NCBI GenBank assembly: GCA_012512325.1
Contig: JAAZEL010000066.1
Location: 1 to 35,204 of the forward strand
Length of the DNA: 35,204 nucleotides
Reading direction: 5' to 3'
Source: Candidatus Fermentithermobacillaceae bacterium
GTDB taxonomy: Bacteria > Bacillota > Sulfobacillia > Fermentithermobacillales > Fermentithermobacillaceae
Below, one piece after another: positions 2,588 to 33,902 of this stretch (the first letter of the stretch is position 1; the number at the start of each line of letters is the position of its first letter). The notes beneath the pieces were generated by a model. That model ran no database searches and was not told the DNA's origin. It saw only the letters and a list, made by a program, of their open reading frames with translations. Both the position numbers and the translations under genes were made by a program.

Positions 2588-2780
2588 GGGTACCCCTCCG
2601 GAGCTTGTTGGATAAGTTCGAATTGTCAGAACGATAATGGCCTCCGGTACTTGCACTGGAATCGCGATTGATTGATACCGCAGGTGCAGGTAACCGGCAG
2701 CTACTTCTCCGGTAATTACACCAGACTCCGAAAGCGAGACTCCGAGAGCCTGGTACGACTTGGCATCGATGGTTGCTTCG

Positions 2781-3018
2781 TTGCAAGATGTTTTGTTACA
2801 AGATGCTCTGTTACAAGGTGCTGCGTTTTACAATGCCTCGTTGCAAGGTGCTTTACTACAATATGCTTCGTTGCGATGTGCTTTGTTGTAAGATGATTGC
2901 TGCAACATGCTGCATTGTAAGATGCTCCGTTGTAAAATGCTTCGTTTGCAAGATCCTTCATCATAAAATGCTGCGTTGTAGATGCTTCGCCAAAAATGCT
3001 TCGTTACAAGATGCGGTG
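2781..3018. repeat. Degenerate 15-bp tandem array, 16 units
   Basis: Consensus on the plus strand is about TTGCAAGATGCTTCG. Units begin at 2781, 2796, 2811, 2826, 2841, 2856, 2871, 2886, 2901, 2915, 2930, 2945, 2961, 2976, 2991 and 3004. Twelve of these are exactly 15 bp; the unit at 2945 is 16 bp, that at 2901 is 14 bp and that at 2991 is 13 bp. No two neighbours are identical, yet most keep the ATGC core. The last unit supplies the stop codon of the XRE-cupin gene. The array fills most of the gap between that gene and the ferredoxin-hydrogenase operon. From 2588 to 2780 I see no gene, only an imperfect hairpin at about 2720-2754 (ACCAG/CTGGT arms). Minus-strand frames give pentapeptide-like strings but are broken by the off-length units. 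Confidence 0.9.
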
Positions 3019-6535: not shown

Positions 6536-6731
6536 TTGTATTGCTGTTTTGTTGTGTTGAGCCCTCATTTCATCATTGTCTACCTACGGGTTTCATTAGT
6601 CAAGCCGACTTGAGCACGTCCTAAAGCGGGATCCGGTATTAGGTCGGCCTTGCTCCTTTCCACAGGTGTTCTGGACAATCAGCCAGTCTTTCGCAACCAC
6701 TCTGCTGGAGTTGATGCACTTGGAGAGTGGA

Positions 6732-7150
6732 GTGGTGCACTCCGTGCACCATGGTTTTCGATTTTGGATTTGAATGGTGCACCAGATGTACCAAGCTTGC
6801 TGATCTCGGTTCACGATGGCGCACCACGTGTACCGTTCTTCGAGCTTGCGAGTGTCTCTGGGGCTAAAATGGCCTACCGGATGTACCAAGCTTGCGGATT
6901 GAGTATCAGAATGGTTCGCCACGTGAGCCATTGCGTCGGGTTTTCAGATGCTTCTGCGGCTGAAATGGTTCACCGGATGCACCAATCTTGACGATCTAGG
7001 CACAAAATGGTTCACGCATGTACCATTCTCGTGGGTCTACGGGTATCCGTGGGGGCCAAATGGCCCACGCGATGTACCAGTCTTGCGGATTGGGAATTAG
7101 AACGATCCTCCACGTGCACCACTCCCGGATTTTGAGGCGCCGTGATAGCC
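6732..7150. repeat. Non-coding tandem array, alternating 42- and 53-bp half-units
   Basis: Full units of 95, 96 and 95 bases begin at 6774, 6869 and 6965, with a partial unit before and a degenerate one from 7060. Each has two half-units that begin with ATGG-N2-CACC-like sequence followed by GTACCA-like sequence. The first half-unit is about 42 bases (ATGGTGCACCAGATGTACCA at 6774) and the second about 53 (ATGGCGCACCACGTGTACC at 6816). The cores contain GGTGCACC and CACGTG palindromes. Copies are about 60-75% alike by eye. 95 is not a multiple of three and every long frame here changes register from unit to unit, so the array is not coding. Together with flanks it fills the 820 bases between the MFS and nitroreductase genes; 7151-7314 shows nothing else I can support. 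Confidence 0.85.
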
Positions 7151-7314
7151 AACAAGTTCAACTCTCCTTTGATAATCAAGTCGCAAGGATTTTTGCGGTA
7201 GCTCAAAGAAGGTTACTGCCCAAGGCAGTTGATGGGAGAAACCAGCTCCCGTCGTCCACAAAGAACTCTGGGAGTTTCGCAAGATAGGAATACCACCAGA
7301 AAGGAAGTGATACC

Positions 7315-7812: not shown

Positions 7813-8109
7813 ACGGGTGGTGGCAGCGCATTTAGCGGCGCACACACAGGGTGATCTGTGCTCGGGCAGGGATATTGCGTTAAGCGGTGAGTTCGATGCA
7901 TTTCGCCAGGCAGTGATATCGCACCTTGGGTGACCTGTACGGGGCAGGCCCCTTCGTTGCCCAATGGGCTTGCTCCGTGATATCATAAGTGCGCTGGTAT
8001 CGTGACTACAACTACTACCCTAAGAGGAGGATCGCTCCCGGAGCCATGCGCTAAATCTCAACTGTTAACCGCGTTTTGTAACCCACGCGATGGATCGGGA
8101 GTGATCTAT
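7813..8109. other. Intergenic region before the ABC-F gene
   Basis: No gene is supported here. Two loosely similar blocks, CAGGGTGATCTGTGCTCGGG (7849-7868) and TTGGGTGACCTGTACGGGGC (7927-7946), suggest an old duplication about 78 bases apart. A strong AGAGGAGG lies at 8023-8030, but the only ATG after it (8046) gives a two-codon frame, ATG CGC TAA, at an over-long spacing of about 15. Several ABC-F genes are controlled by short leader peptides, so this site deserves a look. The reading frame of the ABC-F gene is also open back to 8002. Confidence 0.35.
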
Positions 8110-9948
8110 ATGGTCTTGCTTTGGCTCCGCAATATAGGCATATCCTTCCAGGGTATTCCCGTGCTGGAAGATGTGGATGCTTTTGTCTCCCAGGGTTCCC
8201 GGGTGGGGGTCATCGGCCCTAACGGAAGTGGCAAGTCCACCCTTCTCAAAATAATCACAGGCTGTGTCAAACCCACTCAGGGAGTCGTAGAACGGGCGAA
8301 GACGCTGAGGATAGGGTATGTGCCGCCTCAAGAAGATGTTATGTTTCAAGGCGGACCGACGCTTGAGAGCGGACCCGCGCCCCAGGACGAGCCCACCACA
8401 CTAGGCAGGCAGGCGCCTCAAGATGTGACGACAGTTGGAGGTGGCACGGTATCCCCTGACCGGACCCCCCTGGATCTCATAGGCCCGGAACACTCCGGAA
8501 TGCTTGGCCGGTTCGGGCTCTCCCGGCGCCTGTGGGACCAACCTGTGTCTGCCCTCAGCGGCGGGGAACGGGCCAGACTGCTTCTGGCAGTAGCCATCGC
8601 AAACACCCCTGAACTTCTGGTGCTTGACGAACCTACCAATCACATGGACATCGGCGCTGTGGAGGCGCTGGAAACGCTGATTAAGGGTTTTCCCGGGACC
8701 GTCTTGATCGCGTCCCATGACCGATACTTCTTAGACTCGGTGTGCAGCGAAATATGGCGGGTTGAAAACCGCAGGGTGAAGGCGTACAAGGGCAACTACT
8801 CGGCTTACGTAGAGGCACGGCGGGTGGAAGAGGCTAGTCTGGCCAGGGAGTATTCCAAATGGCGGACTTCAGTCGACAGGCTGGCCGTTGAGGTGCGGGC
8901 CAGGCAGCAATGGTATGACAAAGCCCACAGGGATGCGGGCAAGAATGACTACCTGAGGAGGCGGGCTAAGAAACACGCCAGGCAGTTCAAGGCTAAGCAG
9001 AAGAAGCTGGATAAGCTGCTTGAAGACCGGCCTGAGAAACCACCAGCTGTTAAGCCTGTGACGATAAAGCTCCAGGAAGGCTCCTACAGAACCAAGACCA
9101 TCCTTAGGGCTCGGGATTTGTCCTTCAGATATGAAACGGGAACCTCTCCAATCATAGCAGATGCTACTTTCGCAGTGTCTCCCGGCGAGAAGATCGCCCT
9201 TGTGGGGCCTAACGGTTGTGGCAAGACGACCATGATAAGGCTGTTTGCAGGGGAGCTGATACCGGAAGCCGGTGGCCTTTGGGTGAACCCCAACATACAG
9301 GCGGGCTACCTCGCCCAAATGCTCGACCATCTGGATTTGTCCCGCAGTGCGGCTGATAACGTCTCACTGCATACCGGCAGGACCATTCCTGAAGCCAGGC
9401 GCCTTCTCGGGTATCTGGGGATATCCAAGCAGGCCCAGATCATGCCTTTGGGCAAACTCAGTGCGGGGCAACGCACCAAAGTTGCCTTAGCCTGCCTTAC
9501 CTTTGCTCCCTTTGACCTCTTGCTCTTGGATGAACCTACAAACCACTTGGACGTAACCGCCAGGGAAGCTGCGGAGGAAGCGTTGGCAGCCTTCCCCGGA
9601 GCAGTCATAGTCGCTACCCATGACAGGTTTTTCATCGACAAGGTATGTGGATCTATATGGCACCTTGAAAAGGGAAAGCTTCACATATACGAAGGCTCAT
9701 ATGCCGAGTTCCGGGCCCGGGTTGAGGCCGGGAAGCAAAGGTACTGCGCAGATGAAGAAGATACAGGCGGTACGCCGGCCGGCCCGGGATTGCCAGGAGA
9801 CAGGAAAGCCGTGGAACTGGCGCTCAGGACCAAGCTGGCGTATATTGCCTCGCGACTTGGGTTTGTGGACGATGAAGCGGAGAAGCTCCGGCTGGAATCT
9901 GAGTACGAGGAGACTCTGGCCAAACTCAGGCGGCTGGAGAGGGACTAA
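8110..9948 (+). CDS. ABC-F family ATPase (translation factor or ribosome protection)
   Basis: A 612-residue soluble protein with two ATPase domains and no membrane segments. Domain 1 has Walker A GPNGSGKST, signature LSGGERARL and Walker B LLVLDEPTNHMD. Domain 2 has GPNGCGKTT, LSAGQRTKV and LLLLDEPTNHLD. Between them is the charged helical linker that contacts P-site tRNA in this family. A lysine- and arginine-rich tail ends in a coiled coil. Known members (EttA, VmlR, Uup) act on the ribosome; which role applies here is not clear. The stretch between Walker A and the signature of domain 1, normally the arm region, is a Pro/Gln/Gly/Thr-rich segment with a 36-base in-frame repeat (APQD at 8377 and 8413). 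ATG at 8110 is preferred over upstream in-frame starts because homology begins there, though its ribosome site (GGGAG) is modest. Confidence 0.88.
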   Translation: MVLLWLRNIGISFQGIPVLEDVDAFVSQGSRVGVIGPNGSGKSTLLKIITGCVKPTQGVVERAKTLRIGYVPPQEDVMFQGGPTLESGPAPQDEPTTLGRQAPQDVTTVGGGTVSPDRTPLDLIGPEHSGMLGRFGLSRRLWDQPVSALSGGERARLLLAVAIANTPELLVLDEPTNHMDIGAVEALETLIKGFPGTVLIASHDRYFLDSVCSEIWRVENRRVKAYKGNYSAYVEARRVEEASLAREYSKWRTSVDRLAVEVRARQQWYDKAHRDAGKNDYLRRRAKKHARQFKAKQKKLDKLLEDRPEKPPAVKPVTIKLQEGSYRTKTILRARDLSFRYETGTSPIIADATFAVSPGEKIALVGPNGCGKTTMIRLFAGELIPEAGGLWVNPNIQAGYLAQMLDHLDLSRSAADNVSLHTGRTIPEARRLLGYLGISKQAQIMPLGKLSAGQRTKVALACLTFAPFDLLLLDEPTNHLDVTAREAAEEALAAFPGAVIVATHDRFFIDKVCGSIWHLEKGKLHIYEGSYAEFRARVEAGKQRYCADEEDTGGTPAGPGLPGDRKAVELALRTKLAYIASRLGFVDDEAEKLRLESEYEETLAKLRRLERD

Positions 9949-10000
9949 AGCTGTGAAGGGGCATGAAACAGAGGAACTAGGACCGTAGCCGGTGGAGGGT

Positions 10001-10256
10001 CGACCAGAAACCGGGGAACGCATTAAGAACTGAGATCCGACTGGGAACCGACCAGGAACCAGCCATAAATCGATCAAGAACAGACCAGGAACTGACCAGG
10101 GTCCGACCTAGCCACGACTAAGAACCGAGCAGGGCCCCGCCAGGGCCAGGCTAAGGATCGGTCGGGAACCGACCAGTGACTGGCCAGACCCAACTAGGAA
10201 CAAGCCGGGAATCAACCAGTCATCGGCCAGGACCCGACTGGGAATAGACTGAGAAC
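10001..10256. repeat. 11-bp degenerate tandem array, at least 20 units
   Basis: From 10038 to 10256 the sequence divides into 20 consecutive units, 19 of exactly 11 bases and one of 10 (at 10192). Consensus is about CGACCAGGAAC. Examples are CGACTGGGAAC (10038), CGACCAGGAAC (10049), CGATCAAGAAC (10071), CGGTCGGGAAC (10159) and CGACTGGGAAT (10235). A further unit (CGACCAGAAAC) lies at 10001. Substitutions are many but indels nearly absent. Eleven is not a multiple of three and no frame stays open through it in a meaningful way. The array fills the space between the ABC-F and guaA genes. From 10257 to 10351 there is a short leader with a weak promoter-like pair (TTGTTG, GATACA, 16 apart) before the guaA ribosome site. 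Confidence 0.92.
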
Positions 10257-10351
10257 GATAATGGGTGTAAGCCCTACTCTGTAGTACTTGTTGCGCCAAT
10301 CTCTCAGGTGATACAGTCATTATGTGGGAATGCACGGAGGGGATGATGACC

Positions 10352-11809
10352 ATGGCAGAACATGATAAGCAAGCAAGCAGTCCACATGGTGGGAGACGGG
10401 GCAGATCAGATGACAAGCAAGCAAGCAGTTCACATGATGGGAGACAGGGCAGACCAGATGACAAGCAGGCAAGCAAGCCACATGATGGGCAAGCAAGCAG
10501 GCCACAGGATAGCCGACAGGCCGGACCACATGATAGGCAGCTGAGCGGGCCCGGGGAAAAACGACACCACAGACCGCAGGGCATTCAGCATTGCGGACCG
10601 GTGAACAGTCAGCAGAACAGGAAGGGCAGGCAACGCAACAACGAATGGTACGCCCGGTTTGTCCGTGATTCCATATCTCACATAAGGGAAACAGTAGGAG
10701 ATTCCAAGGCCATCGTAGGCGTTTCCGGCGGGGTGGATTCCACCGTCGCAACTGTATTAGTACATAGAGCCATAGGTGACAAGCTGATACCGGTGATGAT
10801 AGACCACGGTCTGCTCAGAGAAGGTGAAGTTGAACTCGTGGTCTCCGCCTTTTCAGAATTGGGCATCCATCTCCGGGTGGTGGACGCCGGCGCCCGTTTT
10901 CTGGCACGGCTCAAAGGGGTCGCGGACCCGGAGGAAAAGCGCAAAGTCATCGGCGAAGAGTTCATACGCGTGTTCGAGGACGAAGCAGCCAAGTACGGAG
11001 ACGTCCGTTTTTTGGTGCAGGGCACCATCCTCTCTGACGTGGTAGAGTCGGGTACATCAGTTGAGCTTGCAGTTGGGGATTCAGCGAGCGATATAGATGA
11101 GGACATAGGTGAGGATATAGGTGAAGACACAGGTGCCCATAGAGGTAAGGATGTAGGTAAGGATGCCGGTGAGGATGCATTTGAGGATGCCGATGAGGAT
11201 GCAGGCGAGGATACAGGCGGGGATCCGGGTGATGGTGAGGACAAAACTGAGGATGCAGGAGAGGACACAAGAGACGCAGGCACCCCTCAGCTCGTAAAGA
11301 GCCATCACAACGTAGGGGGCTTGCCTGAGCACATGGATTTTGAACTGCTTGAGCCCTTGAGAGAGCTATACAAAGAGCAAGTGAGGCTGGTAGGCGAAGC
11401 CCTAGGGCTGCCCAAATCCCTCATCTACCGGCATCCGTTCCCAGGGCCGGGTTTGGCCGTGAGGGTGCTGGGAGAGGTGACAAAAGAGAAACTGGATACC
11501 CTTAGGAAGGCCCAAGCAGTGCTTGACAGGGAGATCCTCGAGTCGGGTTGGTACGATAACTTGTGGCAATACTTCTGTGTGCTCCCTAATGTAAGGACCG
11601 TGGGCGTCAAAGACGGCCGAAGGACTTACGGACATCTGATCGGCGTACGGGCGGTCTTGTCCTCTGATGCCATGGTAGCCAAGTGGGCTCCCATCCCCCA
11701 CCATGTGCTTGACAGGATAGCTCTAAAGATTACAGAAGAAATTCCCCAGGTAAACAGGGTAGTATACGATATCACCTCTAAACCGCCGGGAACGATTGAG
11801 TGGGAATAG
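10352..11809 (+). CDS. guaA: GMP synthase, ATP-pyrophosphatase and dimerization domains only
   Basis: A 485-residue protein that amidates XMP to GMP. The PP-loop SGGVDS (125-130), DHGLLREGE, the KSHHNVGGLPE motif (316-326) and the C-terminal dimerization domain ending KPPGTIEWE are all present. The N-terminal glutamine amidotransferase domain of ordinary bacterial GuaA (about 190 residues) is absent; in its place are about 97 low-complexity residues rich in Gln, Ser, His, Asp and Arg. A second insert of about 78 acidic residues (236-314) sits between ESGT and VKSHHN, where most homologues have only a few. It may use free ammonia or a separate amidotransferase subunit, as in archaea; none is in this window. 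ATG at 10352 is chosen because GGAGGGG ends nine bases upstream; ATGs at 10322, 10343 and 10346 are in frame. purB follows 14 bases downstream. Confidence 0.9.
   Translation: MAEHDKQASSPHGGRRGRSDDKQASSSHDGRQGRPDDKQASKPHDGQASRPQDSRQAGPHDRQLSGPGEKRHHRPQGIQHCGPVNSQQNRKGRQRNNEWYARFVRDSISHIRETVGDSKAIVGVSGGVDSTVATVLVHRAIGDKLIPVMIDHGLLREGEVELVVSAFSELGIHLRVVDAGARFLARLKGVADPEEKRKVIGEEFIRVFEDEAAKYGDVRFLVQGTILSDVVESGTSVELAVGDSASDIDEDIGEDIGEDTGAHRGKDVGKDAGEDAFEDADEDAGEDTGGDPGDGEDKTEDAGEDTRDAGTPQLVKSHHNVGGLPEHMDFELLEPLRELYKEQVRLVGEALGLPKSLIYRHPFPGPGLAVRVLGEVTKEKLDTLRKAQAVLDREILESGWYDNLWQYFCVLPNVRTVGVKDGRRTYGHLIGVRAVLSSDAMVAKWAPIPHHVLDRIALKITEEIPQVNRVVYDITSKPPGTIEWE
10364..10550 (+). repeat. In-frame 48-bp repeat in the guaA N-terminal extension
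   Basis: Two full 48-base units (10364-10411 and 10412-10459) encode DKQASSPHGGRRGRSD and DKQASSSHDGRQGRPD, and a third begins at 10460 (DKQASKPHDG). It then breaks into shorter QASRPQDSR and QAGPHDRQ variants. The underlying smaller unit is about nine residues, QASxPHDGR. All lengths here are multiples of three, so the reading frame is kept. Confidence 0.85.
11099..11281 (+). repeat. In-frame 12-bp acidic repeat inside guaA
   Basis: Eleven uninterrupted four-codon units (residues 250-293; bases 11099-11230) follow the pattern E/K-D-x-G: EDIG, EDIG, EDTG, AHRG, KDVG, KDAG, EDAF, EDAD, EDAG, EDTG, GDPG. After a six-residue break come EDAG and EDTR. The DNA unit is about GAGGATATAGGT. The insert lies beside the KSHHN segment of the ATP-pyrophosphatase domain, probably in the flexible lid loop. 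Confidence 0.9.
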
Positions 11810-13181: not shown

Positions 13182-15677
13182 ATGGTGAACAATCGTAACG
13201 GAAGACACAATACGGTCAACAATCGTGACGAGCGCGACGAAAGGCCCAATGCGGTGAGCAATGGCGACGGAAGGCGCAATATGGTGACTAATAAGGGCGA
13301 AAAAAGCAATATGGTGAGCGATCACGACGGAAGACGCAATGACGAAAAGGCTAAAGACGGCGCTTGGAGAGAGCTGGGCCTCAAAGATGATGAGTACCGG
13401 ATGATCGTCGAAAAACTGGGCCGTGAGCCCAACTTCACCGAGTTGGGTATGTTTGCAGTGATGTGGTCGGAGCATTGCGGGTACAAGCATTCAAAGAACC
13501 TCCTGAAAAAACTGCCTGTGACCGGTCCCCGGATTCTGGTCGGACCTGGCGAAAACGCAGGAGTGGTCGACATTGGGGACGGTTTGGGCGTTGCATTCAA
13601 GATCGAGTCCCACAACCACCCTTGCGCAGTTGAGCCGTATGAGGCGGCAGGCACGGGGGTAGGGGGAATTGTCAGGGACATCCTTGCAATGGGTTCACGT
13701 CCCGTGGCGCTGGCCGGCTCTTTCAGGTTCGGCCCGCCAGACGCTGAAAGGTCCAGGTTTCTGTTTTGCCGGGCAATTGCAGGGGCAACCGCCTACGGAG
13801 ATGCCTTGGGCATTCCTACGATCAGTACTGAGATTATGTTCGCACAACCGTATGCCAACAACCCTCTCTGTAACGTGTTGTGCGCCGGTATCTTGCGTCA
13901 CGACCAACTCCGCAAGGGCTTGGCCACGGGCGTGGGCAATGTGGTCATGATCGCCGGCAACTCTACAGGCAGGGACGGCATCCACGGCTGCACTTTTGCA
14001 TCGGACGAACTTGGAGATGTAGGTACCGAAGGGTCTTCTCACGTTGCGTCAGGGGATCCTCTGATGGGCAAGGGTCTTATTGAAGCTTGCCTTGAGATGA
14101 TGGCTGAAGGCCTGGTTCTGGGAATTCAGGATATGGGTGCCGCGGGGATCACTTCGTCCGGAGCGGAAACCGCAGCCAGGGCGGGCACGGGACTAGCCAT
14201 TGAGGTTTCGAAGGTCCCGGTAAGGGAAGAGGGGATGACCCCGTATGAAATCATGCTGTCAGAAAGCCAGGAACGCATGCTCTTGATTGTGACGCCTGAA
14301 AACCTGGACAGAGTTACGGAGATCGGCAAGAAGTGGGACCTCCACGTCGCCGAGATAGGTGTAGTCAACGATTCGGGCAATCTCCAGGTTTACGCCAACG
14401 GCGTCAAGGTGGCTGACGTGCCGGTAGATATCCTCACCCGAGCCCCGGTGTATGAGCCTGAAAGCAAGGAGCCTGCCTATTTGGAAGATACCAGGAGGTT
14501 TTCGGCAGGCTCAGTTCCTGTCCCGGAAATAGATGAGTTCAACGCCATTTTGACTAAGCTCTTGGCATCGCCCAACATAGTTTCAAAACAGGCGTTGTAC
14601 GACCGGTTTGCCGCTGACCGGTTTGCCGGTGGAGCCAGTGCAGAAATAGCAGGTGAAGTGGGGACAAGGATGGGCGAGGTAAGCAGCCCTCGCGAAGGCG
14701 GGGTCACCCAAGGTCTTGGGAAAGCCGGCATCCCAGAGGTGGGTGTAGGGGTGATCCGGGTTGAAGGCACCTCCAAGGGCTTGGCTGTTACCACCAGGTG
14801 CAACGGCAGGCTGGTTTACCTGAATCCCAGGGCAGGCACCCAATGGGCTGTTGCCCAGGCAGCCAGGGCGTTGGCGGCAACAGGGGCCGTTCCCCTGGCA
14901 ATCACCAACTGTCTCAACTTCGGCAACCCTGAGAAACCGGAAATCTTCTGGCAACTCAAACAATCAGTGGAAGGTATGGCAGAAGCATGTTCAGCCCTCG
15001 ACACTCCCGTCGCCGGAGGTAACGTGAGCTTGTACAACGAAACCCAGGGAGAGCCTGTGTATCCTACCCCTGTGATAGGGATGATTGGCCTCCTGGACGA
15101 TGCACGCAAAGCGGTTACCCCTGGGTTTAAGGCGGCAGGCCACAAGATTGCCGTCATCGGGAAGATTTACGGGGACAACAGGTCCTTGCACGGCAGCGAG
15201 TATCTCCGACTGATTCACGGCGTTACGGGCGGAGACATAAGGTATCCCGACCTTGAGATGGAAAAACGCATTGTCAAGATCCTGACCGAGGGAGCAAGGC
15301 AGGGGCTGTTTGCTTCAGCCCACAGCGTTGCCTTGGGCGGCCTGGCTGTTGCCCTGGCCCAGTCGTGTATCTGGGGCCAAGAGGGAGCCAGGGGCGCAGA
15401 CATCCGCCTGGGCGCCCTCCACGGGATAATTGAGCCTTCCCACAGGCCTGACGGGGTACTCTTCGGGGAGAGCGATTCCGTGGTCATCGTGAGTTTTGCA
15501 CCGGAGCACGAACGTCACATTGAGGCACTCTGCCGCGACAACAAGGTGCCCTTTACACCGGCCGGGACGGTTACCGCCGACGGACTGGTAGTCAAGAGGT
15601 GCAGCGCCTGCTTGGAGGCGGAAATCATCAAACTGGGTTACCAAGATATGGTCCATGCGTATTACATTAGTGTATGA
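13182..15677 (+). CDS. purL: Phosphoribosylformylglycinamidine synthase, small PurL type
   Basis: An 831-residue ATP-dependent enzyme that makes FGAM from FGAR. The Bacillus-type PurL is about 740 residues and works with PurQ and PurS, neither of which is in this window. Family landmarks are MWSEHCGYKHSK, KIESHNHPCAVEPYEAAGTG, GGIVRDILAMGSRP and ITNCLNFGNPEKP. The excess length comes from an N-terminal extension of about 60 residues made of 10-residue repeats, and an insert of about 30-40 residues near bases 14613-14745 between YDRF and GVIRVEGTSKGLAVTT. That insert begins with a direct repeat GACCGGTTTGCCG (14601 and 14616). ATG at 13182 is preceded by AGGGGG; homology to other PurL proteins begins only near AWRELGL, so the true start could be later, but no good ribosome site was found there. 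Confidence 0.92.
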   Translation: MVNNRNGRHNTVNNRDERDERPNAVSNGDGRRNMVTNKGEKSNMVSDHDGRRNDEKAKDGAWRELGLKDDEYRMIVEKLGREPNFTELGMFAVMWSEHCGYKHSKNLLKKLPVTGPRILVGPGENAGVVDIGDGLGVAFKIESHNHPCAVEPYEAAGTGVGGIVRDILAMGSRPVALAGSFRFGPPDAERSRFLFCRAIAGATAYGDALGIPTISTEIMFAQPYANNPLCNVLCAGILRHDQLRKGLATGVGNVVMIAGNSTGRDGIHGCTFASDELGDVGTEGSSHVASGDPLMGKGLIEACLEMMAEGLVLGIQDMGAAGITSSGAETAARAGTGLAIEVSKVPVREEGMTPYEIMLSESQERMLLIVTPENLDRVTEIGKKWDLHVAEIGVVNDSGNLQVYANGVKVADVPVDILTRAPVYEPESKEPAYLEDTRRFSAGSVPVPEIDEFNAILTKLLASPNIVSKQALYDRFAADRFAGGASAEIAGEVGTRMGEVSSPREGGVTQGLGKAGIPEVGVGVIRVEGTSKGLAVTTRCNGRLVYLNPRAGTQWAVAQAARALAATGAVPLAITNCLNFGNPEKPEIFWQLKQSVEGMAEACSALDTPVAGGNVSLYNETQGEPVYPTPVIGMIGLLDDARKAVTPGFKAAGHKIAVIGKIYGDNRSLHGSEYLRLIHGVTGGDIRYPDLEMEKRIVKILTEGARQGLFASAHSVALGGLAVALAQSCIWGQEGARGADIRLGALHGIIEPSHRPDGVLFGESDSVVIVSFAPEHERHIEALCRDNKVPFTPAGTVTADGLVVKRCSACLEAEIIKLGYQDMVHAYYISV
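13185..13343 (+). repeat. In-frame 30-bp repeat at the purL N-terminus
   Basis: Five units encode VNNRNGRHNT (13185), VNNRDERDERPNA (13215, 39 bases), VSNGDGRRNM (13254), VTNKGEKSNM (13284) and VSDHDGRRND (13314). Four are exactly 30 bases and the fifth is 39, so the frame is kept. Units share V-x-N/D and R/S-N-M/A/T ends. Confidence 0.85.
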
Positions 15678-15725
15678 ATGTCCCATTCGCCATGTTATTC
15701 CCAAGTGCAGTGGAGGTGCACATGG

Positions 15726-16490
15726 ATGATTAAGATGTCCGAGGTTTCCAAGAGCTACGGCCGTGAAGTAAAGGCTGTAGACAGTCTGGACTTGCATGTG
15801 ATTCCCGGTGAGATCTTCGGGTTTCTGGGGCCTAACGGTGCCGGAAAGACAACCACCATCAAAATGCTGGTGGGGATCCTTCAACCCGATGAAGGCTCAA
15901 TCGAAGTAGCCGGTATCAGCATGCTCGATAACCCTATAGAGGCCAAGAAGCGGATAGGCTATGTTCCTGACGAAGCTCAACTGTGGGAAAAACTAACAGG
16001 AGCCGAATACCTTGACTTTGTGTGCGATGTATATGGGGTTCCCGGGGTAAGGCGGGAGGCTGAAGCTGTGAAGATGCTTGAGACCTTCGAGATGCTTCGC
16101 GCAGTGAACGACCCCATCGGCAGCTATTCCAGAGGTATGCGCCAGAAGATCGCCTTGATAGGCTCGCTCATGCACCGCCCTCCGGTGTGGGTTCTGGATG
16201 AACCCATGGTTGGCCTGGATCCCAGGTCTTCATACTTGCTGAAGGAGCTCATGCGTTCCCACGTTGAACAGGGGGGAGCGGTGTTCTTCTCCACCCATGT
16301 GCTGGAAGTGGCCGAAAGGCTGTGCGATCGGGTGGGCATCATCCACAAAGGCAAACTCATTGCGGTGAACACCGTGGAAGAAATGAAAGAACTGTTCGCT
16401 AAAGAGGGAGACAAATCCCTGGAAGAGATCTTCCTGGAGGTTACAGGAGCCAAACTGCCCCAGGAGCAACTGGCGTCCTTGGCCAAGTGA
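15726..16490 (+). CDS. ABC transporter ATP-binding protein
   Basis: A 254-residue ATPase. It has Walker A GPNGAGKTT, a signature variant YSRGMRQKI, Walker B VWVLDEPMVGLDP and the switch His in FFSTHVLEVAERLCD. This is the CcmA/NatA-type subfamily that pairs with ABC-2 permeases. ATG at 15726 is favoured by GGAGGTG about eight bases upstream; the frame is open back into the end of purL. It is followed after 19 bases by its permease. The substrate is unknown. Its place downstream of purL without a terminator suggests read-through from the purine operon. Confidence 0.9.
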   Translation: MIKMSEVSKSYGREVKAVDSLDLHVIPGEIFGFLGPNGAGKTTTIKMLVGILQPDEGSIEVAGISMLDNPIEAKKRIGYVPDEAQLWEKLTGAEYLDFVCDVYGVPGVRREAEAVKMLETFEMLRAVNDPIGSYSRGMRQKIALIGSLMHRPPVWVLDEPMVGLDPRSSYLLKELMRSHVEQGGAVFFSTHVLEVAERLCDRVGIIHKGKLIAVNTVEEMKELFAKEGDKSLEEIFLEVTGAKLPQEQLASLAK

Positions 16491-16509
16491 CACGGATGGG
16501 GGGATAGTT

Positions 16510-18207
16510 GTGACCACCGCTATAAGAGGGTTCAAGAGGAAAGGTACCCGGAAGCCTTTCTGGGCACTGGTGAGGATGCAGCTCAAGGTCCGGTACAACC
16601 CAGGGAAACTGGTAGAGAGCCTTGGGATGGACGAGAGCAAACGTCAGTACGGATACCTCTACCTGGCGCTCGTGGCCTTGGCTTTCATTCCCTTCACCGT
16701 GATGTTGTTCAGGCTTGCAGATAGCTTGACGTTGGAACTTGTACGGGCAAACCAGCCGGGGTTGGCTGTGGTGATTGCCGTGTTGGCAGGGCAGTTAACG
16801 GTGGTGTTATTCGGCCTGAGTCACCTCATGTCCAGCATGTATTACAGCAGCGACCTGGATCAGCTGCAGTCGTTTCCTCTGAAACCGTGGCAGATAATGT
16901 ACGGCAAAGTGGCCGTGGTTTATGCCGGCCAACTGGTAATCACGGCCTTTGTGGTAGCGCCCTTTCTCATAACCCTGGGCAAGAACCTGGGCGGTGCAGT
17001 TTACTGGCCCCTTGCCTTGCTGGTATACCTGCTTATTCCCTTGGTTCCCCTTGGCGTCAGCTTGTTGATACTGGTGCCTATTATGAAAGCCACCGCGGGT
17101 TCGCGTAGGCGGGACACGTTCAGGGTTTTGTTGGGACTGGTATTTGTGGTGCTCATATTTGCGTTTCAGTACCTCAACAACACAATGCTCCGTTACGGTC
17201 CGGAAACCCTTATAGCCAGACTCATGGAGAGGGACGGCCTGGTCAGTACAGCGGCAGGATACTACCCTGTGCTCAAATGGGCGGCATGGGCGCTTACCGG
17301 CGGCGATGCGGCCAGGCAGTTGTTGGGATTAGCGCTTTATGCAGGCGTGTCTGTAGGCTTAGTCAACCTTGTGATCTCATTGACCCAGGGCTGGTTCTTT
17401 AGCGGGATTGCCCCGGCAAGCTCCGGAGCTACCAAGAAGCATGTTCCCAGGGCCGGCGCGGCGGTTGCAAGGCCAAGGGGTACCATGAGTGCGCTGATAC
17501 TCAGGGAACACAGGATCATAGCCCGGACGCCCAACTTTCTCTTGACGGTCTTGCTCAACCTGTTGGTTCTCCCCATCTTGGTAGTATCCATGTACATCAC
17601 AGGAGGAGACGCGATACCGCAAATCCTCCAGACCTTGTTGGGCGCCAAGACAAAAGACGTAGTGGTCCTGGTCATGCTGGGGATCCACGGCTTGTTCACG
17701 GGGATGAACCAGGTTGCATCAACTGCAGTGTCCAGAGAAGGGCCCATGTTCTGGATGAGCAAACTCATCCCCGTAGCCCCCAAGGTACAGATGCGAGCAA
17801 AGCTCATCTACAGCCTGTTGTTTTCCTTGGCGCAACTGGCAATACTTGCAGGCGCGGCTATATGGTTCCTGAAACTTGACTTTGTGCGGTCTGTGGTACT
17901 CATAGCCTTGGGTATCCTGGTATCCGCGCCGGTGAGCATCATATGTCTGTTGAATGACTTGCGCAGTCCGAAAGTCAACTGGACTGAACCCCAGCAAGCC
18001 ATGAAAGGCAACTTCCAGACCTTGGTGGCGTGGCTGTTTTCGTTACTGTACTTGGGTATCCTGGTATTGGTGACAAGAGGCTTTCTCTTACTGGGACTAT
18101 CTATCCGGCTGCTGTATGCCGTCCTAGGCGTGCTGATGGCGGTGTCTTCTTATGGGCTGCTCACCTGGCTTGATAGCGCGGCCGAATCGGTATATCCCAA
18201 GCTGTAA
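16510..18207 (+). CDS. ABC-2-like transporter permease
   Basis: A 565-residue integral membrane protein with about 12 hydrophobic segments, for example LALVALAFIPFTVMLF (near 51-66), VVIAVLAGQLTVVLFGL (near 87-103), LLVYLLIPLVPLGVSLLILVP (near 170-190) and several after residue 330. It resembles the large two-half permeases that work with NatA-like ATPases. The start is GTG at 16510 with a G-rich (ATGGGGGG) site upstream. A conserved charged motif MYYSSDLDQLQSFPLKPWQI lies in an early loop, as in this family. Export or import and the substrate cannot be told. A strong terminator follows. Confidence 0.85.
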   Translation: MTTAIRGFKRKGTRKPFWALVRMQLKVRYNPGKLVESLGMDESKRQYGYLYLALVALAFIPFTVMLFRLADSLTLELVRANQPGLAVVIAVLAGQLTVVLFGLSHLMSSMYYSSDLDQLQSFPLKPWQIMYGKVAVVYAGQLVITAFVVAPFLITLGKNLGGAVYWPLALLVYLLIPLVPLGVSLLILVPIMKATAGSRRRDTFRVLLGLVFVVLIFAFQYLNNTMLRYGPETLIARLMERDGLVSTAAGYYPVLKWAAWALTGGDAARQLLGLALYAGVSVGLVNLVISLTQGWFFSGIAPASSGATKKHVPRAGAAVARPRGTMSALILREHRIIARTPNFLLTVLLNLLVLPILVVSMYITGGDAIPQILQTLLGAKTKDVVVLVMLGIHGLFTGMNQVASTAVSREGPMFWMSKLIPVAPKVQMRAKLIYSLLFSLAQLAILAGAAIWFLKLDFVRSVVLIALGILVSAPVSIICLLNDLRSPKVNWTEPQQAMKGNFQTLVAWLFSLLYLGILVLVTRGFLLLGLSIRLLYAVLGVLMAVSSYGLLTWLDSAAESVYPKL

Positions 18208-18244
18208 CCTGAAGCTCATTGGCTGATTGACCTTAGCTATGACA

Positions 18245-18279
18245 AAACCGGAGGCGGGCAATGTACCCGCCTCCGGTTT
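18245..18279. terminator. Bidirectional intrinsic terminator
   Basis: Arms AAACCGGAGGCGGG (18245-18258) and CCCGCCTCCGGTTT (18266-18279) pair perfectly over 14 bases around loop CAATGTA. A-rich sequence before and T-rich after make it work on both strands. It sits between the convergent permease gene and the PLP-enzyme gene. Confidence 0.9.
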
Positions 18280-18293
18280 CATATGGGGGAAGG

Positions 18294-19754
18294 CTAGGAT
18301 AAGAATCCTGCGTTTCTCCCGATGATTTCCATGAGTGTGAGCAGGCCTTTGACGGCCAGACGCATCTTTTCTTCATCCAAGTTGCCTTCCTCGTCGGAAG
18401 TGCCCTGACCGGGTGAGATGAAGATGTTGCCGTCGTAGGAGATGGTGGCTATGATGCCCATCTGGGCGCAGCCCACCTGCAGCAGGTGGGAGCCTGCGTA
18501 CATGTCTTCGATGGAGAAGATGGGGAAGCCCATTCCTTCTTTCCATGTATTCTCGTAGTTGATTTCGACTGTTCCCGAGTTGTAGGATTTGGAGACGAGC
18601 AGTCCTTGCTTGAGCTTGGGATGGACCTTGTCAAGCTCGGAAGTCACGATTTCATACAGTTTGTCTACCTGTTCAGTGTACATCTTCGGGTTGTCTCTCA
18701 GATCTTTGAGCACGGCAACTTGTGTGAGCAGTGCTTCCTTGCCCGGGTCGATCATTACGTAGGCGGCTTTGCCGTAGGAAGCGGTGGTGCCGTACCTGTC
18801 GCCATGGAAGCCCATGCCGCGCCTTATCGGGACCATTACGTCTTCACGCCCGATAATCAGGCCTGAGGTTCCTGAACCGGAGGCTTTGTCCATGCTGTAG
18901 ATGATGACGTCTCCGCCTGACTTCCTCAGGTCGTGGCCTACGAAGGGGAGTCCCCACGCGTTGTCGAGGACGTACGGTACGTCGAATTCCTTGGCAAGTT
19001 CGGCCAAGCCCTTCTGGAGCACCGGAGTTCCCGTCTCATCCTTTTCGCCGTAACCGTATCCAGGAGTGTCGTATGCCAAAGACGAGAAGCCTGCCAGATA
19101 AGGTGCGTGCACTTCTGCAGCGGCAGCGAGCACTTCGATGGATGCCTCGGGATCAACATCGATCAACATGGGAACGGGATGATACATGATTCCATGCACG
19201 TCATACTTAGCGCCTACCAGAGGCACGATGACTACATCCAGGTTTTCCAGGCGTTTGCCTGCAAATCCGAAGTCGCCCGGGGTGGTGCCGCGGTCAGCAA
19301 GGATTTCCTTGTACTTAGGAGGCACCGGCCGCCCGTAACCGGCCTGGTGATGCATGTGCTTTTCCCAGGGCACTATGTATCTCGACCGGTACTTGTCTCC
19401 CCGGCCCGCGAGAGGCGGTGAGAACAAGGTGTCAAAAGTCACCCACAGGCCACCTTCACAGGTAGCTACAGGGCAAGCATCGAACTCATCACCATAGACG
19501 TCTTTTACGATCTCCCTGATTTCCTCAACCAGGGTTGCCAGGGGGATAGAGCGGCGTTCGCCTTCCATGATGGCTTCCATCACGTTTCTCCGCATGGGGG
19601 CCGGGCAACCTGAGATGGCGCCGGTAAGCCCTATCTGGCCTCTGTATTTGGTGATACCGAGGTCGTCAGCTGCTTTGCGGGCTTCTGCATAGATCTCAGG
19701 TGTCTTTGCCTGCAGATGCTTATACATCTGAAACTTGTACTTGAAGCTGGACAT
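18294..19754 (-). CDS. PLP-dependent enzyme of the aminotransferase fold (type I), substrate unknown
   Basis: A 486-residue soluble protein. The PLP signs are VLDNAWGLP with Asp264, the residue that would contact the cofactor ring nitrogen, and YSMDKASGSGTSG with Lys290 as the Schiff-base lysine, followed by Ser and Gly residues that hold the phosphate end. CPVATCEGGLWVTFDTLF (94-111) is a probable cofactor-stacking region. The overall order fits the class I/V aminotransferase superfamily, including tyrosine phenol-lyase and Sep-tRNA:Cys-tRNA synthase relatives, but I cannot place it in a named family. No domain is missing or truncated. Start ATG at 19754 has only a weak AGG site. It is co-transcribed behind a small unknown protein, 39 bases apart, and the pair may form one function. 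Confidence 0.65.
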   Translation of the reverse strand: MSSFKYKFQMYKHLQAKTPEIYAEARKAADDLGITKYRGQIGLTGAISGCPAPMRRNVMEAIMEGERRSIPLATLVEEIREIVKDVYGDEFDACPVATCEGGLWVTFDTLFSPPLAGRGDKYRSRYIVPWEKHMHHQAGYGRPVPPKYKEILADRGTTPGDFGFAGKRLENLDVVIVPLVGAKYDVHGIMYHPVPMLIDVDPEASIEVLAAAAEVHAPYLAGFSSLAYDTPGYGYGEKDETGTPVLQKGLAELAKEFDVPYVLDNAWGLPFVGHDLRKSGGDVIIYSMDKASGSGTSGLIIGREDVMVPIRRGMGFHGDRYGTTASYGKAAYVMIDPGKEALLTQVAVLKDLRDNPKMYTEQVDKLYEIVTSELDKVHPKLKQGLLVSKSYNSGTVEINYENTWKEGMGFPIFSIEDMYAGSHLLQVGCAQMGIIATISYDGNIFISPGQGTSDEEGNLDEEKMRLAVKGLLTLMEIIGRNAGFLS

Positions 19755-19793
19755 TAGACCTATTCCACCCTTTCCTTTGTTATCCTGCTGTTT

Positions 19794-20249
19794 TCAGCCT
19801 GAGCGTTCACTGCAAACAGCGTGTGCCTTAAAGACTACTTGCATACCGACTTCCAATCCTCTGTCCTCGCCCGATTTGAGATCTCCTCGCAGCACGACGT
19901 TCATGTGGTTTGGGAAGTGGGCCATGTCATACCCTGCTACGGTACCCAGGCAGCCTTTTTCAGTCATCGCACTGTCTGTGTGCAGCAAAACCCCTCCGTT
20001 TAGAAACTCCACGAAGGCAACATATGCAATCCTCTGAACTTTGCAGCCCGGGCCTGCATTTTCGTCAGTGACGATAAGCTCGTGGATTTCGCCTTGCCGT
20101 ATTGCCCGTGATGGCTGAGGGATGAGCTCCAGGTTGCGGTTATCAAGTTGGCCTCTGAGAACCGCTACCACCTTGGCTACAAGCTCGTTTCTTTGGGCGT
20201 AGTAGCTTGTGTTGACAAGTTTCCGCGTATAGGGGTCATTGCTTGCCAT
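19794..20249 (-). CDS. Conserved-looking small protein of unknown function
   Basis: A 151-residue soluble protein with no membrane segment or signal peptide. I do not recognise it. Strands and turns alternate (KVQRIAYVAFVEFLNGGVLLHTD, GTVAGYDMAHFPNHMNVVLRGD), suggesting a compact beta-barrel. AHFPNHMNVVL with paired His residues could bind metal or substrate. ATG at 20249 is chosen because AGGAG lies eight bases upstream; an in-frame GTG lies at 20258. It is the first gene of a two-gene operon with the PLP enzyme, behind a promoter at about 20283-20312. Function as a partner or ligand-binding accessory of the PLP enzyme is a guess from position. Confidence 0.7.
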   Translation of the reverse strand: MASNDPYTRKLVNTSYYAQRNELVAKVVAVLRGQLDNRNLELIPQPSRAIRQGEIHELIVTDENAGPGCKVQRIAYVAFVEFLNGGVLLHTDSAMTEKGCLGTVAGYDMAHFPNHMNVVLRGDLKSGEDRGLEVGMQVVFKAHAVCSERSG

Positions 20250-20282
20250 ACGGTTCACTCCTAATCATGTATGAGCAAGTTC

Positions 20283-20312
20283 AGTATACCACAATAGACG
20301 CGAGAACAACAA
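20283..20312 (-). promoter_or_regulatory. Promoter of the small-protein/PLP-enzyme operon
   Basis: On the minus strand TTGTTG (20312-20307) and TATACT (20288-20283) are 18 bases apart; the -10 matches the sigma-A consensus at five of six positions. A start near 20276 would give a leader of about 27 bases carrying the AGGAG site. The remaining ~90 bases to the divergent fapA gene must hold that gene's promoter, which I could not identify. Confidence 0.5.
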
Positions 20313-20404
20313 CGTCCACAGGAATTTCTTCTCATACTTGCCTGTGATCTTTCCGATAGGTCTTGAGAGAACACAGTTAATGAATTGGAACGGAGGGCAG
20401 AGAT

Positions 20405-22213
20405 ATGCAGCCCAGCAGCGGTAGGAGTACCTCAGGTTTAGCTTGGGTGGAGAAAGGGAAACTTATGGTTACCGACCCCGGCCCGGGAGAGGCACCTGCC
20501 AAGATAAGGCCTTGCGACGGAGTGGAAGTCTTCGTGGAAGGGGTCAAGATAGCCGGCGAAACCGAGGTAACCGCGTCGAGCGACGTGCTCCTGCGGCCTG
20601 TTGAACAACTACCCGAGGTAGCTTTCAAGTTTCAGATAAGCCAAGACGACCTGGAAGCCTATGTACTACTTGAAGCCATAGACGGTGTGCGGTGCAAGGT
20701 CAAAGACACCGAACCCTCCCATGCGTTGCAGTTGGAAGTTGAAAGGGAGGTCGTTCCTGCATGCGTCGACCCCCAATCCCTCATTGAAGGTGCAGAGAAG
20801 GCAGGTATCAGATTTGGGCTGGACACCAAAGCATGTCACATGGTATGCAGAGAAAAACCTTCAAAGTCGGTTCTCATAGCCTCGGGCATTCCTGCCGCGC
20901 CCGGACAAGACGGTAAACTCGAGTTTTCCGTCCCCCTTGAGAAAGTGGTGGAGCTTCCCCTTGACGAGATCAGGGTTGATTTCAGGTCTTCCATCAGGAT
21001 TCCGGATGTAAAGGCCGGCCAGACCATTGCAGTGAAAAAGCCTGCCAAGCCGGGGTTGCCGGGTAAAGGAGTAAGCGGCAAGACCCTGCACCCGAAGAAG
21101 CCCCGTGACCCGAGGCTAAGGGCTGGGAAAGGCGTTGAACTGAGACAACAAGGAGAACTCATCATTGCGGTGGCTACAACTTCCGGTTGGCCAAGGTACA
21201 ACGAGAGTTCAGGGATTGTAGAAGTGGATGAAGTGTATTACCACCGGGGAGACGTGGACCTGTCTTCAGGCAATCTCAAGACATCGGGCAGCATAGAAGT
21301 GGCCGGCAGCGTGTTTGAAGGTATGAAGGTCGAGAGTGAAGGCAACCAGATTATCAGCGGCACCGTAACCGATGCTGAGTTAAGCGCGTGGGGAAGCATA
21401 ACCGTTAGGGGCAATGTGTTCAAGTCGCGCCTTTCAGCGGGCAAGGATGTGAGATGGCTCCACAGGTGGAATGATTTGCTGGCCAACGTGGAAGAAAATC
21501 TTGTGCGCATAATGGAACTCAGGGACCTTGACAACCGCCTGGCCGAGGAAGCCGAGAACGGGGACGGAGAGGATCAGCCGGCAGAAGTGATAAGCGTTTC
21601 CGATTCGGAAGTCTTGTTCGATTACTTCAGGCAGCTCATCATTGCGTTAAGCAACTTGTACAAAGAAGACCTGTCCCAGCTTCCCACGGAGATCGTCCGG
21701 AAGATCCTGGCCGCCAGGGATAAGATAGGGCGTAAGGGAGATGTGTATCAAAGGGCCCAAGCAGTTGAAGACGACATAAGTCATGTAAGGTCGTGGATTG
21801 ACTACGAGTTATCACGGGGCGAGTCGGACATAATAGTGCCTTACGTTCAGAGCTCCTACCTCGAGACTTCCAGGGATATCATAGTGACCGGGCAGGGAGC
21901 CTTGTACTCGAACCTTTCTGCAGGCAGGGCAATTAAGGTTGCCGGAAGCCCGGGTATCGTCCGCGGGGGCGAGGTGACGGCAGCCGAGCTGATCCAGGTG
22001 AATGAGGCAGGAGGCCGGGGCTCGGCCCAAACGGTACTCAGGGTGTCTGAAAAGGGGAGGATCGTCGCCCGCACGGTTCATCCCAATACAACTCTCATTT
22101 TGGGAAGGCTGAAGGCCAGGACGGAAAACTTGCTGGAATCAGTGGAGATCCGTATAGTAAAGGACAGGCTGGTCATATCGAGCAGGTCGGGTACGATTAC
22201 AATGGACGATTGA
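20405..22213 (+). CDS. FapA/DUF342-family polymerizing beta-solenoid protein
   Basis: A 602-residue protein of the DUF342 (FapA) family. The N-terminal ~180 residues are the small domains typical of the family. The central part, from KKPAKPGLPGKGVSGKTL (near 208-225) on, carries right-handed beta-helix turns such as SGSIEVAGSVFEGMKVESEG and ITVRGNVFKSRLSAGKDVRW. A charged helical insert lies at about 355-480 and further beta-helix turns (ETSRDIIVTGQGALYSNLSAG) at the end. Known biology: FapA proteins are linked to flagellar or surface-organelle control in some Bacillota, but the function is poorly settled, and no flagellar gene lies here. ATG at 20405 has GGAGGG seven bases upstream. dppA follows on the same strand after 100 bases. 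Confidence 0.85.
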   Translation: MQPSSGRSTSGLAWVEKGKLMVTDPGPGEAPAKIRPCDGVEVFVEGVKIAGETEVTASSDVLLRPVEQLPEVAFKFQISQDDLEAYVLLEAIDGVRCKVKDTEPSHALQLEVEREVVPACVDPQSLIEGAEKAGIRFGLDTKACHMVCREKPSKSVLIASGIPAAPGQDGKLEFSVPLEKVVELPLDEIRVDFRSSIRIPDVKAGQTIAVKKPAKPGLPGKGVSGKTLHPKKPRDPRLRAGKGVELRQQGELIIAVATTSGWPRYNESSGIVEVDEVYYHRGDVDLSSGNLKTSGSIEVAGSVFEGMKVESEGNQIISGTVTDAELSAWGSITVRGNVFKSRLSAGKDVRWLHRWNDLLANVEENLVRIMELRDLDNRLAEEAENGDGEDQPAEVISVSDSEVLFDYFRQLIIALSNLYKEDLSQLPTEIVRKILAARDKIGRKGDVYQRAQAVEDDISHVRSWIDYELSRGESDIIVPYVQSSYLETSRDIIVTGQGALYSNLSAGRAIKVAGSPGIVRGGEVTAAELIQVNEAGGRGSAQTVLRVSEKGRIVARTVHPNTTLILGRLKARTENLLESVEIRIVKDRLVISSRSGTITMDD

Positions 22214-27342: not shown

Positions 27343-29484
27343 TCAATCCCTGTCAATCGCCGCCGCCACCGCGTTGGCGAAGGTAGCCCTGAGCCTTATG
27401 TGAGCGTTGCCTTCCCGGCCGGCATGAACCCTGTTGGTCAGCAGGATTACGGCCAGGTCGTAGGCGGGGTCGCACCAGAGGCTGGTGCCTGTGAACCCGG
27501 TATGCCCGTATGCCATATCTGACAGGAAATCGCCGCCTGAGGAAAACGTCTTAGATTTCAACATCCAACCCAAGCATCTCCGCTCTTCCAGGTTTGCCTG
27601 CTCCTTTGTGGCCGCGGATACTGTGCTCTTGCCGAGAATCCGAGTGTCGCCCCAACGGCCGTTGTTCAGCCACATGAGGGCATACTTGGCCGTATCCAGC
27701 GCGGTGCTGAAAAGCCCCGCGTGGCCGGCTATACCTCGCAGGGCATGGGCGTTTTCATCGTGGACTTCGCCCCACATCACCCTCGCGAAATCCTCACGAT
27801 ACTCGGTAGCGGCAATCCTGTGCTTCAGCGACTCAGGGGGCAAGAAGCAAGTGTCATACATGCCAAGGGGTCTGAACACCTCTTCTTCGGCAAACTGCTT
27901 TATGTCCATCCCTGTAACCCTTTGGACGATTTCGCCTAAGAGAATGAACCCGAGATCGCTGTATATTACCTGTTTTCCGGGCCTACGTCCTTCGGCGATT
28001 TCCAGGGAGCATATCTTGTCTACAATCTGCTTTCCTCTGAGGCCTTCCTTCCAGAACTTGATGTGGTCCGGCAGCCCTGAAGTGTGGGTCAAGAGGTGCC
28101 TAATGGTTATGGCATCCTTCCCGTGGGCTCCGAACTCCGGAATGAATATGGCAACAGGGTCATCCAGGCGGAACTTGCCTCGCTCGCACAAGATAAGCAC
28201 TGACGGGGTGGCGGCCATCACCTTGGTGAGGGAGGCCATGTCGAAGATGGTATCGGGGGTCACAGGTATGCGCTCAGGCGTCCGGACGGCCCATCCCCAA
28301 GCCCGTGGCCCGATTACCGCGTTGTGTCGAATCACCACAGCGACCGCTCCGGGTATGGGCCCTTGGCCGTCTCCCACGGCTTGGCTTACTACCCGGAACG
28401 CCCGCTCAAGCCTTTTAGCGCTGAAACCTGCTTCTTCGGGAGTGCCGAAGTACAGGCCTGCCTGGGGCTTAGCTGAAGGCCTTTCACAGAACTCGCCATG
28501 GAGTGTTTTCCCTGCGGCTTCTACAGCTGGGGCCGGCTCATGACTTTCCCGGCATTCCGGTATGCCCTCCATGGCCAGTCTAAGAGCTTCCCTTATAGAG
28601 CCGGAAGCTCGCTCAAGGGCGCACCTGGCTTCGTCTGCGCTGACTTCTGCCGTGAGCATGATAAGGGCTGGTGCAATCTCGCCGTCAGCTTGCTCCAGTG
28701 CCGCTTGTAGCTGTTCAGGTTCGCGCCGGGTGGCTTCCCGGAGGATGCGTCTGGCTCTCGATGACAGTTTCAGATTGGTGGGGCTGGTGCCTGCCATTAG
28801 GTTGGAATACGTCCTGCCCAACCGTATCATTGCCGCAGTGGATATCATGTTGAGCACCATTTTCTGTGCCGTCCCATTCTTCAGGCGCGTGGAACCTGTA
28901 ATCACCTCGGGCCCCACGTCAGGGGATATGGTGACCTGGGCGCTGCCGGCCACCGGCCCACGGGGATCCCCTACGATGGCTATGGTCTTGCAGCCACATG
29001 ACCGGGCGGCTTCCATCGCCCCCAGCACAAATGGGGTTTTCCCGCTTGCGGTGATGCCCACTACTGCGTCCCTGGGACCCGGGTCGTAGGACAAGAGCGC
29101 TTGCTTCCCGTCTCCCTCGCTGTCTTCGGCACCTTCGATAGCAGAGAACACCGCCTCTTTACCACCGGATATGATGGCTATGGCTTTGTCTTTGGGCAGG
29201 CCGAAGGTGGGATTAAGTTCGGCGGCGTCAAGGATACCAAGGCGGCCGCTTGTGCCCGCGCCTATGTAGAACAGGCGGCCTCCCTTGGACAAGCACTCGA
29301 CCACCATTTCAACGGCTTCTTGGATTCTGGGAATCTCCCTGGCTATTGCAGGCGCGATCCTGTGATCTTCGCAGTTCATCACCTCAAGGATTTTGCGCAA
29401 GGGCCACGTATCTATGTCCCTGGTCAGAGGATTTGAGTTTTCGGTTCTGGGAACAAAGGTTTCACCTAAGTTTCGGTTGTTCAT
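27343..29484 (-). CDS. Fusion of MurNAc-6-P etherase (MurQ) and AmiE-like serine amidase
   Basis: A 713-residue, two-enzyme protein. Residues 1-305 are MurQ: SIS-fold IGAGTSGRLG (74-83), the family's DAAEL with Glu89 as catalytic acid/base, and TRLKNGTAQKMVLNM (199-213). A linker (about 308-345) follows. Residues 345-713 are a beta-lactamase-fold serine hydrolase with SxxK (Ser418-Leu-Thr-Lys421), YSD in place of YxN, and HTGFTG near the end. The best functional parallel is AmiE (YbbE), the N-acetylmuramoyl-L-alanine amidase encoded near murQ in B. subtilis. There the two are separate and AmiE is exported; here no signal peptide is possible in the middle of the chain, so the amidase must act in the cytoplasm. 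ATG at 29484 has AAGGGG about eight bases upstream. Both active sites look complete. Confidence 0.9.
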   Translation of the reverse strand: MNNRNLGETFVPRTENSNPLTRDIDTWPLRKILEVMNCEDHRIAPAIAREIPRIQEAVEMVVECLSKGGRLFYIGAGTSGRLGILDAAELNPTFGLPKDKAIAIISGGKEAVFSAIEGAEDSEGDGKQALLSYDPGPRDAVVGITASGKTPFVLGAMEAARSCGCKTIAIVGDPRGPVAGSAQVTISPDVGPEVITGSTRLKNGTAQKMVLNMISTAAMIRLGRTYSNLMAGTSPTNLKLSSRARRILREATRREPEQLQAALEQADGEIAPALIMLTAEVSADEARCALERASGSIREALRLAMEGIPECRESHEPAPAVEAAGKTLHGEFCERPSAKPQAGLYFGTPEEAGFSAKRLERAFRVVSQAVGDGQGPIPGAVAVVIRHNAVIGPRAWGWAVRTPERIPVTPDTIFDMASLTKVMAATPSVLILCERGKFRLDDPVAIFIPEFGAHGKDAITIRHLLTHTSGLPDHIKFWKEGLRGKQIVDKICSLEIAEGRRPGKQVIYSDLGFILLGEIVQRVTGMDIKQFAEEEVFRPLGMYDTCFLPPESLKHRIAATEYREDFARVMWGEVHDENAHALRGIAGHAGLFSTALDTAKYALMWLNNGRWGDTRILGKSTVSAATKEQANLEERRCLGWMLKSKTFSSGGDFLSDMAYGHTGFTGTSLWCDPAYDLAVILLTNRVHAGREGNAHIRLRATFANAVAAAIDRD

Positions 29485-29496
29485 CCGCATAACCCC

Positions 29497-33694: not shown

Positions 33695-33876
33695 GGCGGA
33701 TGAAGGCGCCGGGAGAGTCCTGTGTAGGAGCAGGCGCCGAAGGAGCAAGGATGTGTATCCGAAACTCTCAGGCACAAACACCGTCGCCGGACGCATCTCT
33801 GGAGAGCCATTTGAGTATGGCACCAAAGGGGTAACCCGCTTGGTAAGCGGGGAATCTCTCAGGTAAAAGGACAGGG
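33695..33876 (+). promoter_or_regulatory. Tandem glycine riboswitch
   Basis: Two glycine aptamers in series precede gcvT. The first runs from GGGAGAGTCC (33711) to GAAACTCTCAGGCACAAA (33761-33778). After a short linker the second runs from GGAGAGCC (33801) to AATCTCTCAGGTAAAAGGAC (33853-33872). The GGAGAG...CTCTCAGG pairing and the following AAAAGGACAG are the class hallmarks. Glycine binding normally turns on the gcv genes, here most likely by preventing the terminator that overlaps its 3' end. Confidence 0.95.
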
Positions 33877-33902
33877 ACTTCGCGCAAGCCCGGTCCTTTT
33901 TT
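33865..33902 (+). terminator. Riboswitch-controlled intrinsic terminator
   Basis: AAAAGGAC-A-GGG (33865-33876) pairs with CCC-G-GTCCTTTT (33889-33900, one A/G mismatch), followed by further Ts. The 5' arm is the end of aptamer 2, so ligand binding and terminator formation should compete. Confidence 0.85.

Follow-up and report, generated by a model that had tools for sequence, protein, structure and literature searches.

A degenerate 11-bp tandem array upstream of guaA, probably a lineage-specific minisatellite, with a deficit of indels

Bacterial minisatellites of the VNTR (MIRU-VNTR) type are head-to-tail arrays of short units that are specific to a locus and a lineage and lie in spacers as well as in frame within genes. 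Plasmid iterons likewise consist of some 20 short units at nearly constant distances, diversity-generating retroelements produce variation that is rich in substitutions and poor in indels, and the Rickettsia palindromic elements belong to a single mobile palindromic family, copies of which are inserted in frame into genes. Here, we describe an array of 11-bp units between abcF and guaA in the window, that is, the whole stretch of 35,204 nt that was analyzed, an entire contig of a 1.66-Mb genome of a Candidatus Fermentithermobacillaceae bacterium. This array and its sister arrays share all the named features of minisatellites, but the 11-bp array is far more degenerate than VNTR typing loci, and arrays are very dense in this species. 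Unlike plasmid iterons, it lies in a chromosomal housekeeping operon, without a rep gene or a conserved core, and is missing from congeners. Unlike diversity-generating retroelements, it is non-coding, shows all types of substitution, and is accompanied by neither a reverse transcriptase nor a template repeat. As with the Rickettsia elements, insertions inside housekeeping genes are tolerated; however, every array here is built from a different unit, which is non-palindromic and of local origin. Our search of the literature found no description of the array phenomenon.

The initial annotation had described a heavily substituted 11-bp array with near-perfect register throughout positions 10001 to 10256. 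The array itself was confirmed by the autocorrelation of this region (0.535 at lag 11, 0.43–0.51 at lags 22, 33, 44, and 55, and about 0.13–0.33 at most other lags), by a cyclic profile fit, and by shuffling, with no array of comparable strength in 1.06 Mb of the locally shuffled own genome. The near-perfect register holds for the core (Table 1), the consensus of which, CCGACCAGGAA, is a rotation of that of the whole array in the cyclic profile alignment. Clean register starts near 10029, whereas the first 28 bases of the region described earlier, 10001 to 10028, belong to the out-of-register part. Altogether, the five units at the 5' end (9972–10028, the start being obtained with a softer gap penalty) are unit-like but out of register, and including them adds about six indels. 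The substitution count in Table 1 takes the majority base of each column as the consensus; against the profile's own consensus, the count is 72. Every column contains deviations, 3–7 per about 21 units when C is taken as the consensus of column 5, and no column of the array forms a conserved unit core. The substitutions are of every type, with transitions in both directions. A blastn search of the own 1.66-Mb genome returned a single match to the array and no second copy. Thus, the units are arranged head to tail and are locus-specific rather than members of a dispersed family, as in minisatellites, the units of which measure about 7–100 bp.

Table 1. Features of the window discussed in the text.
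Feature	Position	Strand	Description
15-bp array	2774..3014		Unit TTGCAAGATGCTTCG; 3' end of XRE-cupin regulator gene; 46 substitutions, 4 indels
abcF	8002..9948	+	Ribosomal-protection-like ABC-F ATPase; insertion of about 105 bp at 8336–8457 relative to G003
Whole degenerate 11-bp tandem array	9972..10259		Consensus ACCAGGAACCG, about 26 units
In-register core of the 11-bp array	10029..10256		20.7 units, 65 substitutions, 1 deletion
guaA leader	10283..10360	+	77% identical in G003; similar by eye in G001
Promoter-like motif	10288..10317		TTGTTG(10288)-18-TACAGT(10312); by eye common to G003, nearly so to G001
guaA	10322..11809 (ORF)	+	ATP-PPase part of GMP synthase only, without glutaminase domain
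24/48-bp in-frame array	10360..10551	+	N-terminal extension of guaA
12-bp in-frame acidic array	11090..11274	+	guaA loop (SDVVESG...LVKSHHN)
15/30-bp in-frame array	13182..13359	+	5' end of purL; seed ATGGTGAGCAATCATAACGGAA
MurQ fusion	27343..29490	-	One ORF: N-acetylmuramic acid 6-phosphate etherase (MurQ) plus PBP4B/class C beta-lactamase-like domain
Tandem glycine riboswitch	33700..33877	+	Upstream of gcvT-like gene; ordinary

The array sits 3' of the abcF stop codon and 65–100 bp upstream of the guaA start, in agreement with the placement before guaA given earlier, and guaA is followed by purB and then purL. Judged against the congener G003, guaA probably starts at 10352. The guaA frames are short (333–379 aa) in the congeners and in the genus g4, and exceed 500 aa in most other relatives. 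The array ends just upstream of the guaA leader, which contains a promoter-like motif; we infer that the leader may act as a promoter, and a consensus scan made no call there. A coding function of the array was ruled out by stop codons in all six frames. Its predicted RNA fold is unremarkable (z-score −1.5), with no Rfam match there, and promoter or terminator calls within the array did not exceed chance.

The order abcF-guaA-purB is kept in three congeners (G001, G002, and G003), all of which lack the 11-bp array. G003 and G001 are collinear with the window over its full length, and G002 is collinear with part of it via a 9.3-kb contig. Between the aligned flanks there are 332 bp in the window and 11 bp in G003, and the spacer is likewise short in G001; in G002, the same spacer harbors an independent array of three 18-bp units. 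Length is thus not conserved at the orthologous loci, an outcome that the initial annotation itself had counted against its proposals. The guaA leader is kept in G003 and G001 despite the absence of the array. Presence in the window and absence in the congeners was also found for the other four arrays of Table 1 and for the abcF insertion. Elsewhere, an array-free segment of 7.5 kb (14730–22224) is 90% identical to G003, as compared with 75–85% for most of the remaining window, which possibly reflects a recent homologous exchange.

On a genome-wide scale, 56 arrays above threshold were detected in 1.06 Mb of the own genome, with periods from 9 to 70 and with many unrelated units. These arrays are clustered along the genome (variance test, P 0.003), and the periods of arrays in long open frames are almost always divisible by three. 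The array density is similar in G003 and lower in G001, G004, G012, and G007. For three of the five arrays tested, a seed was found in G003. The seed of the 15-bp array is single-copy in G003 and G001 (0 of 100 random sites as good in G003), that of the purL array is single-copy in G003 (0 of 100), and that of the 12-bp guaA array, EDA..QDTGD, occurs once in G003 (1 of 100). The N-terminal guaA array yielded no seed in G003. For the 11-bp array, no single-copy seed was detectable, given that random sites scored as well in 124 of 300 cases in G003 and in 136 of 300 in G001. The presence of seeds at uninterrupted G003 sites suggests that local sequence was expanded in tandem in situ.

Loss of mismatch repair or PolA was rejected as the source of array abundance because MutS, MutL, and PolA are present throughout. 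The mutS gene of the own genome spans two contig ends (G000:C37:67-666 and G000:C53:55-1998), with a short part missing; possibly, an array or insertion at mutS broke the assembly. SbcD was rejected as well: there was no match in the own genome and only sub-threshold relatives in congeners, so that array-rich and array-poor species were not separated.

We therefore consider the 11-bp array to be, with a probability of about 0.75, a degenerate minisatellite that was born in the lineage of its own species. A short sequence in the small abcF-guaA spacer would have been tandemly duplicated to about 26 copies, most likely by replication slippage, a birth step suggested by the single-copy seeds at three sister arrays, with none here. 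This expansion would have followed the split from G003 and would itself have been followed by decay through ordinary point mutation. The array would be one outcome of a wider tendency, seen across the genome in the own species and in G003, of local sequences to expand into arrays where this is tolerated: in spacers, in N-termini, and, for periods divisible by three, in loops of housekeeping proteins. The divergence of the units from the consensus is 0.286, or 0.36 per site after Jukes-Cantor (JC) correction, and dS to G003 is 0.75–1.25 in four genes, about 0.5 per lineage. Hence, the divergence fits neutral decay since the G003 split. We further infer that the array has no essential function. 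Besides the lack of a seed for this array in G003 and G001, two observations run against the minisatellite reading. There is no sign of stepwise growth, and the pattern is that of a burst with subsequent decay: similarity between units does not fall with distance along the array, there is little nearest-neighbor similarity, and the unit-order test for stepwise growth was negative, except at a lag of four units (P 0.012). In addition, plain neutral decay does not account for the low number of indels.

The flat similarity along the array, as if all units stemmed from one template, would be expected if the units had been made by templated, error-prone copying with a fixed step, by a reverse transcriptase or a telomerase-like enzyme, with the variation present at birth. 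The initial annotation had offered error-prone copying of this kind as one of its two explanations. It is not needed, given that neutral decay suffices, and we consider it very improbable. No reverse transcriptase (RVT_1) was found in five genomes of the genus (G000–G004), the substitutions are not confined to one base, the units differ at every locus, which leaves no common template, and several sister arrays show neighbor similarity or multi-unit duplication.

The tandem arrangement of short units with fixed spacing would also be compatible with an iteron array of a replication origin or partition system. However, no rep or par gene is found among the neighboring genes (abcF, guaA, purB, and purL), the unit core is not conserved, and the array is absent in the congeners, so that such a role appears extremely unlikely. 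More broadly, the iteron-like, sequence-specific protein binding proposed earlier is unlikely for the lack of a conserved core and the absence from three congeners, and other arrays have unrelated units and periods.

The low number of indels is not peculiar to the array in the window. Non-coding arrays of the genus with periods of 10–22 were pooled, leaving out multiples of three. The four 11-bp arrays contain 151 substitutions and 5 indels (30:1), as opposed to 471 substitutions and 76 indels (6:1) in the 16 other arrays, 25 of the 76 indels being supplied by one chimeric array, L092. By label permutation, the difference has a P of 0.001, and a P of 0.006 without the window array, for a sample that is partly post hoc: it comprises four arrays, two of which are short and lie within one 2-kb stretch, the window array had been picked by a reader for its register, and the cleaning of the list involved hand choices. 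The second large 11-bp array, in G003 (L101:2973-3148), lies beside a sigF-like gene; its unit is unrelated, and G001 lacks this array. In simulations run with the substitution-to-indel ratio that the other arrays show, 0–2% of cases yielded a stretch of 20 or more units with no more than one indel, or with no more than one event in total, so that the register is tighter than expected from this ratio; simulation gave no support for detection bias as the source of the deficit. The earlier claim that indels are fewer than expected is thus borne out relative to the other arrays of the genus, whereas neither of the two causes proposed for it, selection on spacing and fixed-step copying, is established.

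Under selection on spacing, the array would act in cis, upstream of the guaA promoter, as a helically phased element that binds protein, or bends without strict sequence specificity, and in which indels are purged and substitutions are tolerated. The 30:1 versus 6:1 ratio, which detection bias did not produce, and the position of the array just 5' of a promoter-like leader kept in G003 are consistent with such an element. Nevertheless, we regard it as unlikely. All three congeners lack the array, even though the leader is retained in G003 and G001; none of the columns is conserved, and the five 5' units have lost register. Moreover, a step of 11.0 bp departs from the helical repeat of B-DNA by roughly half a base each turn, and after 21 units this adds up to a full turn. 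The sequences of the other 11-bp arrays are unrelated, as are the genes that they adjoin, and the comparison involves only four arrays, including the one chosen for its register. Taken together, the array is ordinary in kind but has preserved its register better than most arrays of its genome.

Helical phasing is far more plausible for a genus-restricted intergenic array of a 23-bp palindrome-like site, AATGGTGCACCACGTGCACCATT, in the window spacer 6561–7307 (array at about 6731–7123). Further loci are L047:6761-7123, L053:6914-7254, L092:3519-4156, L093:3138-3682, and L185-L195. The array was found in the own genome (G000), G001, G003, and G004, but not in G002, in other genera of the family, or in the class members searched. 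In the sampled genomes, adjacent sites are, almost without exception, 42–43 or 52–54 bp apart, in either a rigid 53-bp or an alternating 42/53-bp pattern, and the spacers vary in sequence, not in length; the 53-bp distance is maintained in G003 and G004 across arrays with as many as 20 sites, even as the spacers change. Distances of 42.5 and 53 bp correspond to four and five turns of 10.6 bp. The whole looks like a phased protein-binding array. No match to a RAYT-type transposase was found in the genus. The window spacer 6561–7307 and its counterpart in G003 (contig C95) are of about equal length and do not align convincingly, suggesting that different repeats may have emerged independently within one spacer; the abcF-guaA spacer, with the array of G002, is another such case.

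A broader, rather improbable possibility is that the 11-bp non-coding arrays of the genus are held in register by selection on helical spacing, not on sequence. These independently born arrays with unrelated units would then be interchangeable as phased spacers or bending elements close to promoters, and phasing of this kind would take a second, sequence-specific form in the rigid 42/53-bp palindrome arrays. The indel deficit of the 11-bp arrays offers a concrete and cheap test of selection on helical spacing alone. The many arrays together provide an internal ruler of indel and substitution rates. The lineage-specific arrays of this genome are unusually dense, and some of them are inserted in frame in guaA, purL, and abcF; orthologous sites are uninterrupted and seeds survive, which makes the genus well suited for watching the birth and decay of bacterial minisatellites.
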